Shown piece by piece: positions 7,546 through 56,474 of a stretch of 64,000 bases of DNA; the stretch's first letter is position 1; the number at the start of each line of letters is the position of its first letter. The translations under genes and the position numbers were made by a program. The notes under the pieces are model-generated. The model was given only the letters and a program-made list of their open reading frames with translations. It had not been told where the DNA came from and searched no databases. This DNA comes from Bacillus sp. 491mf (GTDB lineage: Bacteria; Bacillota; Bacilli; Bacillales; Bacillaceae_G): positions 22,876-86,875 of the forward strand of contig NZ_FOLV01000016.1 of NCBI RefSeq assembly GCF_900112415.1, read 5' to 3'.

Positions 7546-7592
7546 AAGTTTTTTAGGTTTTGTTTTTCACAAAAATCCCCATATAAAACTAC

Positions 7593-7620
7593 AAAAAAAG
7601 CTATCTCGTAAGATAGCTTT
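7593..7620 (-). terminator. Rho-independent terminator of the serine hydrolase gene
   Basis: AAGCTATCT and AGATAGCTT pair around a four-base loop, with a U-run in the minus RNA, immediately after the stop codon at 7621. Confidence 0.85.
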
Positions 7621-8799
7621 CTAACCTTCCTCATGCCGTACCATCGTATAAATATCATTACTTACAACGCCAAACGACTTAATATTATTTTGAATATTTG
7701 ATAATAACACAACATATGTATTTCCATCTTTACTAAAACTATTTAAACAATTCCATCCTGGCATAACACCATGATTTGAATAACTGCCAGGGTTCACATA
7801 CCAACCAAAACCATACTCCTTTTTAACTGCGGTAAACATTTGTTGATAACTATCGCTTGAAATCAGCTTTCCTGTAAACAAAGCTTGATCAAATAAATAT
7901 AAATCATATGCAGTCGTGTATATATCACCGCAGCCAAATAATTGCGACATACTCGGTACAGCTGGTGTTGTCATTTTATTGTCTACTATTTTATAACCAG
8001 TAGATGGATATTTTCCTTGTTGAAACTGATCACCAAATCCGGAATGTTTCATACCGACAACTTCAAAGATATTCTTTTGAATATAATCTTGAAGGGATTG
8101 TCCACTCACTTTCTCGGCAATATACGCAAGCACGGAATAGTTAGAATCGGAGTATTTCCATTGTGATCCGGGCGGGAATGCCAACTTTTGCTTTCCTATT
8201 CTTCTAATTAATTCCTCATGGGTGATGCTCTCTGATCCCTCGCTGTACTCCGGGATCCCTGATGTATGTGTAAGAAGATGCACTAATTTAATCTCTCCAC
8301 CTCTTGGAAAATCAGGAATATATTTCGCGACCGTATCTTGTATGTTTAATTTATTTTGTTCTTTCAATTGCATAATTGAAGTTGCGACAAAAGCTTTTGT
8401 AATAGAACCAATATAGTAGGATGTCTCTGAATTATTAGCAACTTTTTTTTCTTGATTGGCAAGTCCATACCCTTTGTTTAAAAGAACCTCTCCATTTTTC
8501 ACAACAACCGCTGTGCCGCTAAAGTTTTTACTCTTCATATACTCATCTAATTGAGCATGATTATTAATTTCTTGCGGAGGTTGCTCAGCTACCACTTCTT
8601 CTTTCTTTACTTCTTCTTTCTTTACTTCTTCTTTCTTTACTTCTTTTTTCACTTCTTTTTCTTCTTCTTTCATCGCTTGCAAAGTTGCCTTTTCTTTATC
8701 ATGGGAAGTAATTTTCGCATACCCCCAATATACCAAGGCAAACAACAGACTAAGAATAATCGTTCGTTTTACATATACAATTGGTTCGCGAGTTTTCAT
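7621..8799 (-). CDS. Membrane-anchored serine hydrolase of the beta-lactamase / class C PBP family
   Basis: A penicillin-binding-protein-like hydrolase or transpeptidase with an N-terminal membrane anchor (about residues 10-28), a charged linker of repeated KKEEV units at about residues 50-70, and a beta-lactamase fold. The active-site SxxK is SITK (GSITKAFVA), the second motif is YSDSNYS, and HGVMPGW lies where the third motif falls. This is typical of secreted AmpH/D-aminopeptidase-like proteins; the substrate cannot be read from sequence. The frame extends to 8904, but MKTREPIVYVKR at 8799 gives the expected anchor; MSNYVKR at 8835 is an alternative and both ribosome sites are weak. It stands alone with its own terminator. 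Confidence 0.85.
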   Translation of the reverse strand: MKTREPIVYVKRTIILSLLFALVYWGYAKITSHDKEKATLQAMKEEEKEVKKEVKKEEVKKEEVKKEEVVAEQPPQEINNHAQLDEYMKSKNFSGTAVVVKNGEVLLNKGYGLANQEKKVANNSETSYYIGSITKAFVATSIMQLKEQNKLNIQDTVAKYIPDFPRGGEIKLVHLLTHTSGIPEYSEGSESITHEELIRRIGKQKLAFPPGSQWKYSDSNYSVLAYIAEKVSGQSLQDYIQKNIFEVVGMKHSGFGDQFQQGKYPSTGYKIVDNKMTTPAVPSMSQLFGCGDIYTTAYDLYLFDQALFTGKLISSDSYQQMFTAVKKEYGFGWYVNPGSYSNHGVMPGWNCLNSFSKDGNTYVVLLSNIQNNIKSFGVVSNDIYTMVRHEEG

Positions 8800-48198: not shown

Positions 48199-48356
48199 TA
48201 GATGTCTTCCTTTCCGTACTTTTTATGACCAATATTCATATATAACAAAGCGGAGTCAAAAAGACAAGTATTTTCACTTCTATCTTGCTTCTGTACTTCC
48301 ACCACGAATAGCGGAATTAGTAAAATCTTTTCCTAAAAGGAAACATATGTTACAAT

Positions 48357-48371
48357 CTAGAATAGTAATAA
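48357..48371 (+). promoter_or_regulatory. Possible PerR-type operator upstream of the metal ATPase
   Basis: CTAGAATAGTAATAA agrees with 10 of 14 fixed positions of the PerR box TTATAATNATTATAA. It lies upstream of the duplicated leader. The B. subtilis homologue of the ATPase (PfeT/ZosA) is PerR-regulated, which supports the idea; the match alone is weak. Confidence 0.35.
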
Positions 48372-48399
48372 TAAAGTAAATAACTACACAGAGTGTGTT

Positions 48400-48689
48400 T
48401 TCTAAGAAATGCTGCTATCCGTATGGATGGCAGCTTTCGTCGTTTTATAAGGGTTTCGATGATGATTCTTTTTCTCAAATAGAGAGGAGTGAAACGAGAT
48501 GAACTCACCAGTAAAAATGTTCGCAATGCAAAAGAACGTTTCAACTTAGAAGAATGCTGCTATCTAGATAGATGGCAGCTTTCGCCATTTTATAAGACTA
48601 CCGATGATGATTCTTTTTCTCAATCGAAAGGAGCAAAAAAGCTATGAATTCTGAAGCAAAAACATTATCAAAGCAACAAGGAACGCCAA
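48400..48689 (+). repeat. 145-base tandem duplication covering the leader and first codons of the metal ATPase gene
   Basis: Unit 1 (about 48400-48544) and unit 2 (from about 48545) share GCTGCTATC...GATGGCAGCTTTCG, TTTTATAAG, CGATGATGATTCTTTTTCTC, a ribosome site and an ATG-AA(C/T)-TC start. ATGCTGC occurs at 48409 and 48554, and the start codons at 48499 and 48644, each exactly 145 bases apart. Each unit can form the hairpin GCTGC(C/T)ATC/GATGGCAGC upstream of its ribosome site. Confidence 0.85.
48499..48549 (+). CDS. Upstream small open frame, duplicated N-terminus of the ATPase
   Basis: 16 codons reading MNSPVKMFAMQKNVST and then stop, with AGAGAGGAG in front. The first residues match the start of the downstream ATPase (MNSEAKTLSK), and both frames sit at the same place in the 145-base repeat, so this is a duplicated and now truncated gene start. 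It may be a leader peptide that couples translation to the downstream leader hairpin, or simply a relic. Confidence 0.5.
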   Translation: MNSPVKMFAMQKNVST

Positions 48690-50572
48690 ATTCTTCATCT
48701 TGGCTTGCAACATTTCAAAAGCATTATGAACTCATTTTCGCGCTTACATCCGGCGTGTTAATTTTAATCGGTTGGTTATTAACAAAGAATGACATGACAA
48801 CAACCGCAACGACATTTTACGTATTCGCTTATATCATTGGAGGTTATGCAAAAGCAAAAGAAGGTATTGAAGACACAATCGCAGAAAAAGAGCTGAACGT
48901 CGAAATGCTCATGCTGTTTGCAGCAATCGGTTCAGCCATTATTGGCTACTGGACAGAGGGTGCTATCTTAATTTTCATCTTCGCTTTAAGCGGCGCGATG
49001 GAAGCTTACACAATGAACAAAAGTCAAAAGGAAATTTCAGCACTGCTCGACTTACAACCAGAAGAAGCACTGCGCATCTCACGCGGAATGGAAGAGCGCA
49101 TTGCAGTTGAACGACTAGAAATCGGTGACATCATTTTAATTAAACCAGGTGAACGCGTTCCTGCAGATGGCATGATTCGCACAGGTGAAACGAATATCGA
49201 TGAGGCTGCTATTTCAGGTGAGCCGATTCCAAATGAGAAAAAACCTGGTGACGAAGTATTCGCAGGAACTGTTAACTTACGCGGTGCCATTGAAGTAGAA
49301 ATTACAAAACATAGCGATCAAACATTGTTCCAAAAAATTATTCGTCTCGTACAAAATGCCCAAAGTGAAAAATCACCGTCACAGCTTTTCATTGAAAAAT
49401 TCGAAGGGACGTATGTAAAAGGAGTCCTTCTCGTTGTATCACTTATGATGTTCGTTCCTCATTATGCGCTTGGCTGGAGCTGGAACGAAACATTTTACCG
49501 TGCAATGATTCTACTCGTTGTTGCTTCTCCTTGTGCGCTTGTTGCAGCGATTACGCCAGCTACATTATCGGCGATTTCAAACGGTGCACGCCATGGCATT
49601 TTATTTAAAGGCGGTGTTCATTTAGAAAGATTAGCTTCATTAAAAGCAATTGCCTTTGATAAAACAGGGACATTAACACAAGGAAAGCCAACAGTAACAG
49701 ATGTATATACGCGTGATGGTATAACTGAAAAAGAGCTACTATACATTACAGCATCCATTGAAAGTCATTCTACACATCCTCTAGCGGAATCTATTGTGAA
49801 CTATGCAAAGCAAGCATATGATATTACGTTAACAAAACCAGAAAACGTAGAAGATGTAACAGGATTTGGCTTAAAGGGGACACTACAAAATAAAGCATAT
49901 AAAATTGGGAAAGCTGATTTTATCGGAGAAGAAACAAAAACGTTTCATAGCAGCATTTCCATACATTTAGAACAAGAAGGAAAAACAGTTGTATATGTAA
50001 GTGATGAAAACGGCATTCTCGGTCTGATCGCCTTAAAAGATACATTGCGCCAAGAAACAATTGCAGCAATTCGCGAACTCCAAAGCCTTGGCATTGAAGC
50101 AATTATGATTACAGGTGATAATGAACAAACAGCAAAAGCCATCGCTGCTGAAAGTAATATTAAAGAATATTACGCATCATGCTTACCAGAAACAAAAGTA
50201 GAAACGATAAAACAATTGAAAGAGAAGTACGGTACAGTAGCAATGGTTGGTGACGGAATTAATGATGCTCCTGCCTTAGCCACAGCAAGTATTGGCGTTG
50301 CAATGGGAGAAGGAACTGATGTTGCGTTAGAAACAGCTGACGTTGTCTTAATGAAAAGTGAACTTTCCCGCTTAGCACAAGCCATTCGCTTATCTAAACG
50401 AATGAATCGCATTGTAAAGCAAAATGTGATCTTTTCATTAACTGTCATCATGCTGCTCATTTGTTCAAACTTCCTGCAATTTTTAGCCCTTCCATTAGGT
50501 GTCATCGGTCATGAAGGAAGTACGATTCTCGTTATTTTAAATGGATTACGGTTATTAAAAGCAAATAATTAA
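48644..50572 (+). CDS. P1B-4-type heavy-metal exporting ATPase (PfeT/ZosA-like)
   Basis: Pumps a divalent transition metal across the membrane with ATP. 642 residues without N-terminal metal-binding domains. Diagnostic residues: SPC at 295-297 in the transport helix (not CPC), the phosphorylated Asp339 in DKTGTLT, TGDN and GDGIND in the ATP domain, and H623 in the HEGST motif of the last helix region. SPC plus HEGS(T) defines the P1B-4 group, which exports Fe(II), Co(II) or zinc in different bacteria; B. subtilis PfeT is the nearest known case. AAAGGAGC precedes ATG 48644 within repeat unit 2. A terminator follows. Confidence 0.92.
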   Translation: MNSEAKTLSKQQGTPNSSSWLATFQKHYELIFALTSGVLILIGWLLTKNDMTTTATTFYVFAYIIGGYAKAKEGIEDTIAEKELNVEMLMLFAAIGSAIIGYWTEGAILIFIFALSGAMEAYTMNKSQKEISALLDLQPEEALRISRGMEERIAVERLEIGDIILIKPGERVPADGMIRTGETNIDEAAISGEPIPNEKKPGDEVFAGTVNLRGAIEVEITKHSDQTLFQKIIRLVQNAQSEKSPSQLFIEKFEGTYVKGVLLVVSLMMFVPHYALGWSWNETFYRAMILLVVASPCALVAAITPATLSAISNGARHGILFKGGVHLERLASLKAIAFDKTGTLTQGKPTVTDVYTRDGITEKELLYITASIESHSTHPLAESIVNYAKQAYDITLTKPENVEDVTGFGLKGTLQNKAYKIGKADFIGEETKTFHSSISIHLEQEGKTVVYVSDENGILGLIALKDTLRQETIAAIRELQSLGIEAIMITGDNEQTAKAIAAESNIKEYYASCLPETKVETIKQLKEKYGTVAMVGDGINDAPALATASIGVAMGEGTDVALETADVVLMKSELSRLAQAIRLSKRMNRIVKQNVIFSLTVIMLLICSNFLQFLALPLGVIGHEGSTILVILNGLRLLKANN

Positions 50573-53655: not shown

Positions 53656-53807
53656 ATTTCCAACAAATTTATGACAAATCTCCACATTTATTCGCACACC
53701 TTCAAAATATTGTAAAATAATAATAACCCACTCATCAGAGACTTCACATCAAATCGAAATTTTCCACACTACAATTGATAACTGTTTTTTACTGGAGGTG
53801 CTTTCAT

Positions 53808-56474
53808 ATGAGCAATTGGTACAGTAAGACAACAACTCAGACATTGCATGAACTAGAAACAAATGAACAGCAAGGTTTAACCGAAGAAATAGCGGTAGCT
53901 CGATTAAACAAATACGGGAAAAACGAGCTCGAAATGAAGAAAAAAAGAACTTTGGGTCAACGTATTTTTGCCCAGATCAATGATATTCTCGTCTATGTTC
54001 TTTTAATTGCAGCTCTTATTTCTGCCTTTGTCGGCGAATGGGCTGATGCTAGTATTATTGCTGTTGTAGTCGTTTTAAATGCTGTAATTGGTATCATTCA
54101 AGAATCAAAAGCAGAGCAAGCTCTAGAAGCTTTAAAAAAGATGGCGACTCCAAAAGCAATTGTAAAACGAGGTAGTGAATTAAAAGAAATTCCATCCGAA
54201 AATGTCGTTCCTGGAGACATTGTTCTGCTTGATGCAGGTCGCTATATTCCTTGTGACTTACGGCTCATCGAAACAGCCAATTTAAAAATTGAAGAATCTG
54301 CTTTAACGGGCGAATCCGTTCCTGTAGATAAAGATGCAACGTATACTCCTTCAGGGCAACATCAGAAGAAAGTACCATTAGGTGATCAAAAGAATATGGC
54401 CTTTATGTCTACACTTGTTACATATGGTCGCGGTGTTGGCGTAGCTACCCAAACAGGAATGCATTCACAAATAGGGAAAATCGCCACTCTCTTGCATCAA
54501 GCTGATGATGATACAACACCTCTTCAAAAAAGCCTAGCGCAAGTTGGAAAATATTTAGGCTTTGTCTCTGTAGGAATATGTATCATCATGTTCTTAATCG
54601 GTTTTTTCCAAGGTCGTGATACGTTAGAAATGTTTATGACCGCGATAAGTTTAGCGGTTGCCGCGATTCCAGAAGGCTTACCAGCTATCGTTTCTATCGT
54701 TCTCGCAATCGGTGTACAGCGTATGATTAAACAAAATGTCATCATCCGGAAACTACCAGCTGTTGAAGCACTTGGCTCTGTTACGATTATTTGTTCAGAT
54801 AAGACTGGGACATTAACGCAAAATAAAATGACAGTTACTCACTTTTATAGTGATGGTACATACGATGCATTAGAAAATGTAAACGTAAATAATGATGTTC
54901 AGCGTCTACTATTAGAAAATATGGTTTTATGTAACGACGCCTCTTACAATGCTGAATCACAAACTGGAGATCCGACAGAAATTGCTCTTCTTGTTGCGGG
55001 ATCTACCTTTGATCTTCAAAAAGATATGCTAGAAAAGAAACATAAACGCCTAAATGAGTTTCCTTTTGACTCTGATCGTAAAATGATGTCAACGCTGCAT
55101 GAATACGAAGACAACTACTTTAGTATGACAAAAGGGGCAATCGATAAACTCTTACCTAGGTGCAAACATATTCTTAAAAATGGCACTGTGCAGCCATTAA
55201 CTGAAAGTGATCAAAACGAAATAATAGCAGCGGCACAAGCGATGTCACAAAAAGCGTTACGCGTACTTTCATTCGCTTTCAAACAATACAGTGCCGAGCA
55301 TATTAACATGCAAGAAGCAGAAGAAAATCTTATATTCATTGGTCTTGTAGGGATGATTGACCCGCCTCGCCAAGAAGTGAAAGCAGCTATTAAAGAATGT
55401 AAGAAAGCTGGCATTCGCACCGTTATGATTACAGGAGATCATAAAGATACCGCCTTTGCCATTGCAAAAGAACTTGGAATTGCTGCAGAAGAATCCGAAG
55501 TAATAATGGGAACACAATTAGACAATCTTTCAGATGAACAACTCGCAAACGAAGTGAATCATTTAAACGTCTTTGCTCGTGTTTCTCCTGAACATAAAGT
55601 GAAAATTGTAAAAGCACTACGTGCAAATGGAAATATTGTTTCCATGACTGGAGATGGGGTCAATGATGCACCATCTTTAAAACAAGCAGATGTTGGTGTT
55701 GCAATGGGGATTACCGGAACGGATGTCGCAAAAGGTGCTGCTGATATGGTGTTAACAGACGATAATTTCTCGTCTATTGTTAAAGCCGTCGAAGAAGGGA
55801 GAAGCATTTATCATAACATTAGAAAGTCTATTCTTTTCTTACTTTCTTGTAACTTCGGAGAAATCATTACACTCTTCTTAGCTATTTTACTCGGCTGGGC
55901 TACACCACTTCGTCCCATTCATATTTTGTGGGTGAATTTAATTACAGATACACTTCCAGCATTATCACTTGGCGTAGATCCAGAAGATCCGGACGTTATG
56001 AAAGAAAAGCCGCGCCGTGCGACAGACAGCTTATTTAGCGGCAGTGTACCATTTTTAATACTAAACGGGATTGTCATTGGGCTCATCACGTTAATCGCCT
56101 TTATTGTTGGCGCAAAATTATATACAGGGGATACGAACCTTTTTCCTCTCTTTCCATCTCAAATTGAAGCAGATGCTTTATTACATGCCCAAACAATGGC
56201 CTTTGTCACACTCAGTTTTTCACAGCTCGTTCATTCTTTTAATTTACGATCACGTACAAAATCAATCTTCTCGATTGGGATATTGACAAATAAATACTTA
56301 GTTTTCTCTCTTCTGATCGGTGTATGTATACAAGTATGTATTATTTCGATTCCGCCTCTTGCCAGCATATTTGGTGTACATGCTTTAACAGTAAACGATT
56401 GGGGATTTGTTTTATTACTTAGTATCATTCCGTTACTAGTAAATGAAATAATAAAGGTATTGAAAAGGCAGTAA
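53808..56474 (+). CDS. Calcium-transporting type P-ATPase (P2A)
   Basis: 888 residues. Extrudes Ca2+ (possibly Mn2+) using ATP. It has the SERCA/PMR1-like layout: an N-terminal cation-ATPase domain, PEGLPAI at 288 in helix 4, the phosphorylated Asp331 in CSDKTGTLTQNKMT, TGDHKDTA and MTGDGVNDAPSLKQADVGVAMG, and a six-helix C-terminal domain with NLITDTLPALSLG. GGAGGTG is seven bases before ATG 53808. Together with ChaA it gives the window two calcium exporters. B. subtilis YloB is the nearest characterised protein. Confidence 0.92.
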   Translation: MSNWYSKTTTQTLHELETNEQQGLTEEIAVARLNKYGKNELEMKKKRTLGQRIFAQINDILVYVLLIAALISAFVGEWADASIIAVVVVLNAVIGIIQESKAEQALEALKKMATPKAIVKRGSELKEIPSENVVPGDIVLLDAGRYIPCDLRLIETANLKIEESALTGESVPVDKDATYTPSGQHQKKVPLGDQKNMAFMSTLVTYGRGVGVATQTGMHSQIGKIATLLHQADDDTTPLQKSLAQVGKYLGFVSVGICIIMFLIGFFQGRDTLEMFMTAISLAVAAIPEGLPAIVSIVLAIGVQRMIKQNVIIRKLPAVEALGSVTIICSDKTGTLTQNKMTVTHFYSDGTYDALENVNVNNDVQRLLLENMVLCNDASYNAESQTGDPTEIALLVAGSTFDLQKDMLEKKHKRLNEFPFDSDRKMMSTLHEYEDNYFSMTKGAIDKLLPRCKHILKNGTVQPLTESDQNEIIAAAQAMSQKALRVLSFAFKQYSAEHINMQEAEENLIFIGLVGMIDPPRQEVKAAIKECKKAGIRTVMITGDHKDTAFAIAKELGIAAEESEVIMGTQLDNLSDEQLANEVNHLNVFARVSPEHKVKIVKALRANGNIVSMTGDGVNDAPSLKQADVGVAMGITGTDVAKGAADMVLTDDNFSSIVKAVEEGRSIYHNIRKSILFLLSCNFGEIITLFLAILLGWATPLRPIHILWVNLITDTLPALSLGVDPEDPDVMKEKPRRATDSLFSGSVPFLILNGIVIGLITLIAFIVGAKLYTGDTNLFPLFPSQIEADALLHAQTMAFVTLSFSQLVHSFNLRSRTKSIFSIGILTNKYLVFSLLIGVCIQVCIISIPPLASIFGVHALTVNDWGFVLLLSIIPLLVNEIIKVLKRQ

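Follow-up and report, generated by a model that had tools for sequence, protein, structure and literature searches.

A conserved hairpin and Fur-operator-like box in the leaders of metal-exporter genes, doubled upstream of a PfeT-type ATPase gene in Bacillus sp. 491mf

An RNA hairpin followed by a box that resembles an operator of the Fur family makes up a conserved element, of which we have found no description, in the leaders of metal-exporter genes, and in Bacillus sp. 491mf this module is doubled, in tandem, ahead of the gene for a metal ATPase of the PfeT type. The DNA analyzed, a stretch of 64,000 nucleotides from that genome, is referred to below as the window. Sequence comparison gives good support to a working leader element associated with metal export, and we lean slightly toward reading it as a control element that depends on iron, is linked to Fur, and lies in the transcribed leaders of genes for metal (mainly iron) exporters.

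The two units follow each other directly, their starts exactly 145 nt apart (Table 1). The original prediction was of an exact tandem duplication of the leader and start codons of the ATPase gene; the spacing is indeed exact, but the units themselves are only 66% identical. Within 48200-49000, the best ungapped 71-nt self-match reaches 61/71 compared with a maximum of 41/71 over 100 dinucleotide shuffles, and the duplication is therefore real. Its divergence is uneven. The 5' modules (48408-48478 and 48553-48623) agree at 61/71 positions and the remainder of the unit, with the ribosome site and first codons, at only 35/74 (Fisher p = 7e-7); preservation despite divergence, which had been claimed for hairpin and ribosome site alike, applies to the hairpin module and not to the part with the ribosome site and first codons. 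The 21-mer CGATGATGATTCTTTTTCTCA is identical in both units (48457-48477 and 48602-48622), and each unit has an ATG (48499 and 48644). Both hairpins share the arms GCTGCTATC and GATGGCAGC, a C/T variant once noted in the 5' arm being absent, and their tenth stem pair differs in a compensatory manner, C-G in copy 1 and U-A in copy 2. An extended -10 element is predicted upstream, and a ACATATGNTAYAAT block lies at the same place in three other leaders (L001, L003, and L091; by eye). A simple promoter and terminator scan of the window listed neither this element nor the hairpin sites.

Table 1. Features of the doubled leader and the gene that follows it (positions within the window)
Feature	Position	Strand	Remarks
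Predicted extended -10 of leader promoter	48346-48356	+	TATGTTACAAT; by eye
Tandem unit 1	48408-48552	+	145 bp; 96/145 identical to unit 2
Leader module copy 1	48410-48480	+	Covariance model R1, 81.1 bits; in R1 training set (A1)
Hairpin 1	48411-48434	+	10-bp stem, loop GTAT; fold -18 kcal/mol, z -4.55
Fur-operator-like box 1	48457-48477	+	7-1-7 match 11/15, reached by 3.5% of shuffles; matrix score 26.8
16-codon ORF	48499-48549	+	Probably left by copied start region of unit 1; no sign of selection
Tandem unit 2	48553-48697	+	145 bp; extends into first codons of pfeT
Leader module copy 2	48555-48625	+	Covariance model R1, 77.4 bits; in R1 training set (A1)
Hairpin 2	48556-48579	+	10-bp stem, loop AGAT; fold -15.6 kcal/mol, z -4.27
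Fur-operator-like box 2	48602-48622	+	7-1-7 match 11/15, reached by 9.5% of shuffles; matrix score 30.3
Metal P-type ATPase, PfeT/P1B-4 type	48644-50572	+	642 aa; SPC, DKTGT, HEGST motifs

In the window, the module spans ~70 nt and consists of a 10-bp RNA hairpin, a T-run with AGGG, and then TGANNNTGATTNTNNTTCTCA. The general order is a hairpin of 9-11 bp, TTTCGT, a T-run, AGGG, and TGANNNTGATTNTTTTTCTCA, and one copy is present in the leaders of each of the three nearest relatives. Two alignments were made. The first, A1, holds 57 modules that all differ in sequence, the two window copies among them, which were picked by a pattern that allowed a spacing of ~22-29 nt; the second, A2, holds 34 rows chosen for diversity, both window copies included, which were found through the gap-tolerant model R1. 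Compensatory changes, which it had been suggested should be sought in the leaders of relatives, are present in both, and the stem covaries strongly. The A1 stem is paired in 512/513 cells, with four pairs changed on both sides; the 40 cells changed in this way compare with a shuffled mean of 13.1, a number reached by none of 500 shuffles and by no slid version of the alignment. In A2, 99.3% of cells are paired, and seven pairs, amounting to 54 cells, are changed on both sides, compared with a shuffled mean of 10.4 (0/500). Covariation of this kind is most readily explained if the hairpin forms in the RNA. It is the only helix of the module that has such support, and its loops vary in length and sequence. 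Between hairpin and box, the stretch TTTCGT..TTTTATAAGGG is highly conserved (48435-48456 and 48580-48601 in the window) and occupies the same place in relatives; the conserved T-run/AGGG is left unexplained by the reading that we favor.

The distribution of the module was followed with R1 in draws of genomes at several taxonomic levels, which overlap and whose strict filters may lose weak copies. Within the order, matches occur in 98/150 genomes at E ≤ 0.01 and in 215/397 at E ≤ 1e-6, 212 of the latter having one and three having two (copy numbers in the 397-genome draw were taken from per-genome rows). At class level, 33/299 genomes have a match and at phylum level 2/299 (E ≤ 1e-5), both of which had already been found. 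All 79 strong matches among the 150 genomes (E ≤ 1e-6) lie upstream of exporter-type genes, 77 of pfeT type and two of the VIT1 family; 76 of the 79 precede a pfeT match at a variable distance of -6 to 459 nt, and one (in G121) precedes a pfeT that is split over two frames. In the class draw, 33/33 matches stand before metal-transporter genes: 23 before PfeT, eight before a second clade of P-type ATPases, one before a VIT1 gene that belongs to a second VIT1 clade, and one before a CDF gene together with a VIT1 gene. Among the genomes found only in the 397-genome draw, context was checked in G216 and G398, where all four modules precede VIT1 genes. No uptake gene was found behind any of the strong matches that were checked for context. 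None of six pattern matches in viral contigs is a relative, and a search of plasmids gave two chance matches at E = 1 with the leader and none with window positions 42000-64000.

Several of these loci deserve mention in their own right. Modules precede genes of the VIT1 family (PF01988) in four genomes, G112, G140, G216, and G398 (L137, L150, and L197-L200); in L137 the module, at 7886-7955, is followed by the VIT1-family gene at 7985-8674, and G216 and G398 each have modules before two different VIT1 genes. At L216:1908-1976 (minus strand), the module is followed by a CDF-family gene and then a VIT1 gene, which together may form an operon for iron/manganese efflux. The second clade of metal P-type ATPases (L208, L210, L211, L212, L215, L217, L225, and L230), two of whose eight proteins were covered by the ATPase family scan, is ~32-33% identical to PfeT and is a candidate further family of iron exporters. 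The substrates of this clade and of the VIT1 and CDF proteins are assumed.

The ATPase of the window itself exceeds the cut-offs of two NCBIfam families (TIGR01525, 621 bits and cut-off 346; TIGR01512, 545 bits and cut-off 313.5) and also passes Pfam E1-E2_ATPase. Its SPC and HEG motifs mark what we take to be the P1B-4 class, that of Bacillus subtilis PfeT, and by family and motifs it would fit an exporter of the iron type. Its nearest relatives, in two Ectobacillus genomes and Bacillus sp. 165, are 77-79% identical (protein against genome contigs, 80 loci), 79% being the best identity among 19 searched genomes from the family to which the nearest relative belongs. One pfeT match elsewhere (G051:C1:555617-557329) has three internal stop codons and is perhaps a decaying gene or a match that has been fused with adjoining sequence. 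Some 3 kb downstream of pfeT in the window is a second P-type ATPase frame (53775-56474; 899 aa), calcium-type by its look. According to the accessible part of PMC9993123, the B. subtilis PfeT is an iron exporter that is induced by iron through Fur; derepression of its gene by peroxide through PerR is likewise described in the available portions of PMC9993123 and PMC6212828.

The case for a Fur-family operator comes from the collection of boxes rather than from any one of them, and the two window boxes, taken alone, are borderline compared with the Fur consensus TGATAATNATTATCA. Across the 57 tails of A1, the mean best 7-1-7 match to the consensus is 11.9/15 compared with 9.07 for shuffled sequence, and across the 34 rows of A2 it is 11.6 compared with 8.95, single boxes reaching 13/15 (L189) and 14/15 (L192). 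When 33 regions upstream of pfeT that are not part of the alignment were scanned with a matrix built from the box, 24 held a site, with 30 sites in all and 0.15 expected; without the sequence duplicates L049, L077, and L079, 21 of 30 loci have a matrix site. Three of the 56 leaders counted in the matrix scan, L039, L042, and L058, appear without a site for the reason that their box extends into the first codon used. A further box matching at 13-14/15 lies within 70 nt upstream of the hairpin in eight of 17 class-level rows (L208, L211, L213, L215, L217, L218, L221, and L227), those of L218 and L221 being rather PerR-like; at the second-clade ATPase loci among them (L208, L211, L215, and L217), this is a near-canonical Fur box just upstream of the hairpin. 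Candidate binding proteins are at hand, with three or four members of the FUR family in each of six relatives. From these sequence matches, the conserved CGATGATGATTCTTTTTCTC block is quite probably a DNA operator of the Fur family.

The distance between the two parts of the module is narrowly set. From the stem end to TGATT it is 27-29 nt in the 57 A1 rows, a narrowness that is partly built in since the selecting pattern itself allowed only ~22-29 nt; in A2, the hairpin-box spacing is 26-29 nt in 31 of 34 rows and 20-23 nt in the other three. In the mechanism that we propose, the transcribed 5' leader of pfeT would contain the hairpin and, usually 27-29 nt further on, the operator, and in iron excess Fe(II)-Fur would occupy the operator just ahead of a polymerase that has transcribed the hairpin. 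Judging from the spacing, a polymerase halted at Fur would have its active site ~9-12 nt past the stem. The hairpin would then adjoin the rear of the RNA-DNA hybrid, and its folding there would prevent backtracking or release of the stalled complex. Hairpins hinder backtracking, and blocked forward movement can hinder intrinsic termination. Fur would thus act within the leader as well as at the promoter, with iron-induced expression of the exporter as the outcome, and the doubling, with two operators and two hairpins in series, would alter the strength or the threshold of the response. The comparisons show the module itself, its covarying stem, its association with exporter genes, its narrow spacing, and the retention of both copies in the window; that Fur is what binds, in which direction the response goes, that elongation is affected, and what the doubling does are elements that we infer. 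Induction by iron as the net effect is probable, its direction resting on the gene association and on the example of B. subtilis PfeT. A role for the hairpin that is coupled to elongation, to which geometry and conservation point, is offered tentatively. The fullest version, in which Fe-Fur and the nascent hairpin would form an elongation iron switch that has spread to unrelated exporter families in Bacilli and become doubled in the lineage of the window, is more doubtful.

The main rival, which we consider rather unlikely, is activation at the level of the promoter by Fur bound to the downstream boxes, with antagonism by PerR, as for pfeT of B. subtilis, the hairpin merely protecting the 5' part of the mRNA or insulating it. 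Fur-like boxes are also found in pfeT leaders of other genomes that have no hairpin, so that control of pfeT by Fur does not require one. Pinochet-Barros and Helmann reportedly found in 2020 that regions both upstream and downstream of the B. subtilis pfeT promoter matter, as such a mode of activation would have it. Activation of pfeT by Fur in B. subtilis is itself described in the accessible parts of PMC9993123 and PMC6212828. Against a passive hairpin stands the covarying stem, held at a narrow distance from the box across many genomes and gene families. In four leaders without the module (L023, L052, L059, and L069), TTCTCAATTAG half-sites were seen by eye near -35, the matrix confirming only that of L059.

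No second leader with two modules was found in the 85 loci scanned with R1, which yielded 63 strong matches (at least 35.8 bits), one per locus, and in the three two-copy genomes among the 397 the copies are at separate genes. On these grounds, the double module of the window is unusual in this sample. As to whether relatives would have single or double units, the module recurs, never more than once in any other leader examined, and the working unit is thus the single module: what had been proposed as a working tandem leader linked to metals stands as a working leader tied to metal export, with its covarying stem and exporter genes, whereas the doubling is not the rule. Six leaders (L020, L030, L037, L045, L046, and L051) repeat the 3' box only, with two copies by matrix and three by eye. 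Their boxes stand in a row behind one hairpin, ~40-130 nt before pfeT; here the box alone has been repeated, much as the whole module has in the window.

That every other leader manages with one module could mean that the first unit is a functionless relic. This is unlikely, given that its module has been kept so much better than the remainder of the unit, that the stem has undergone a compensatory change, and that its R1 score equals those of single-copy relatives. Orthologues with one copy score 83.0 (L001, Ectobacillus panaciterrae), 81.4 (L003), and 78.5 bits (L002), and the two window copies, both of which are in the training set, score alike. Together with the compensatory tenth pair, these scores speak for function in both window units.

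A third explanation would reverse the sign of the response. Fur in the leader would be a repressing roadblock, stopping the polymerase when iron is present, and the hairpin would cause its release, so that the exporter stays off until PerR or Fur is disabled. The location of the operator in a transcribed region would suit such an arrangement, and in B. subtilis the repression of catDE by Fur is associated with a Fur box downstream of the start (PMC6212828, in the part available). Iron would hardly be expected to switch off its own exporter, and PfeT of B. subtilis is iron-induced, as stated in the accessible part of PMC9993123; moreover, the strong matches checked precede exporter-type genes and none precedes an uptake gene. 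We therefore regard the roadblock as quite improbable.

It is highly improbable that the module is a metal-sensing riboswitch with the conserved single-stranded part as its sensor. Conservation of the stretch between hairpin and box would be in keeping with this, as would the gene mix, metal riboswitches being associated with a similar one of P-type ATPases, VIT1, and CDF. A single supported helix, variable loops, and a 3' part that on its own behaves as a Fur-like DNA site make it less likely, and no Rfam family was above threshold in the window, the best weak matches being due to chance.

The 16-codon ORF of unit 1 raises the question of attenuation by a leader peptide, in which ribosomes on this frame would mask the foot of hairpin 2. 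The frame has retained an ATG and a ribosome site (GAGGAG), and its stop, 6 nt ahead of the hairpin, would allow coupling between ribosome and hairpin. Ribosome site and ATG were copied by the duplication and belong to the portion of the unit that is down to the 35/74 identity given above, and single-module leaders lack such an ORF by construction. The frame is present as had been predicted, with no evidence for its translation or selection; it is probably a by-product of the duplicated start, and attenuation is less probable again than a riboswitch. Least probable of all is that the AGGG stretch is the target of a C-rich small RNA, FsrA or RoxS: RoxS expression lowers zosA (pfeT) mRNA to 0.70 in B. 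subtilis (PMC10433868, accessible portion), and the FsrA family RF02273 matches 0/15 genomes with the module, a B. subtilis control being positive.

Other candidates were rejected outright. The hairpin is not an intrinsic terminator: its tract is interrupted (TTTCGTCGTTTT, TTTCGCCATTTT), it is absent from the scan list, and the tract is lost in distant modules. TTNTTT, presumably a NusG-type motif, is not a general feature, occurring in 24/57 modules and in neither window copy. A SigB-like -10 (GGGTAT) within the module has no -35 at a usable distance (by eye). The third R1 match in the window (7574-7620, minus strand; 22.2 bits) is a hairpin with a T run, an ordinary terminator. Among weak R1 matches elsewhere (E 1e-4 to 1e-2), several are terminators or chance by eye (for example, L148, L151, L152, L153, L155, L157, and L165), and L154, L156, and L160 are, again by eye, Fur-like sites without a hairpin. 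The L156 site lies before an aminotransferase-like gene and that of L160 before a binding-protein-like gene.

Fur is normally an iron-dependent repressor. The means by which activation by Fur or DtxR is achieved is called unclear in the accessible part of PMC11275975, and a conserved hairpin that stands close to a probable Fur site in the leader, recurring before genes for PfeT, a second ATPase clade, VIT1, and CDF proteins, makes this question testable. The module also provides a tag by which candidate iron exporters can be sought in sequence data, and the window offers a natural two-dose variant of it. We found no description of it in the topic literature, which is weak evidence of novelty as most subscription papers were out of reach.

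Several known systems bear comparison. The yybP-ykoY and NiCo metal riboswitches are, like the module, leader elements common to unrelated families of metal exporters; the module differs in having one helix, no Rfam match, and a 3' part that resembles a DNA operator. The B. subtilis pfeT (zosA) promoter, activated by Fur and repressed by PerR, belongs to the same gene family and is under the kind of control by Fur and iron that is considered here; in the available portions of PMC9993123 and PMC6212828, a hairpin coupled to a Fur site in the leader is not described, and the module of the window is, in addition, doubled. FrvA of Listeria monocytogenes, a PfeT orthologue, is a P1B-4 ATPase that exports iron and is controlled by Fur and/or PerR (PMC7762939, accessible part). 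In the regulation of mneP and mneS by MntR, a metal sensor that represses uptake activates efflux through several operators, as described in the available part of PMC11275975. Those operators are located in the promoter region, whereas the boxes of the window lie in the transcribed leader, each beside its hairpin.
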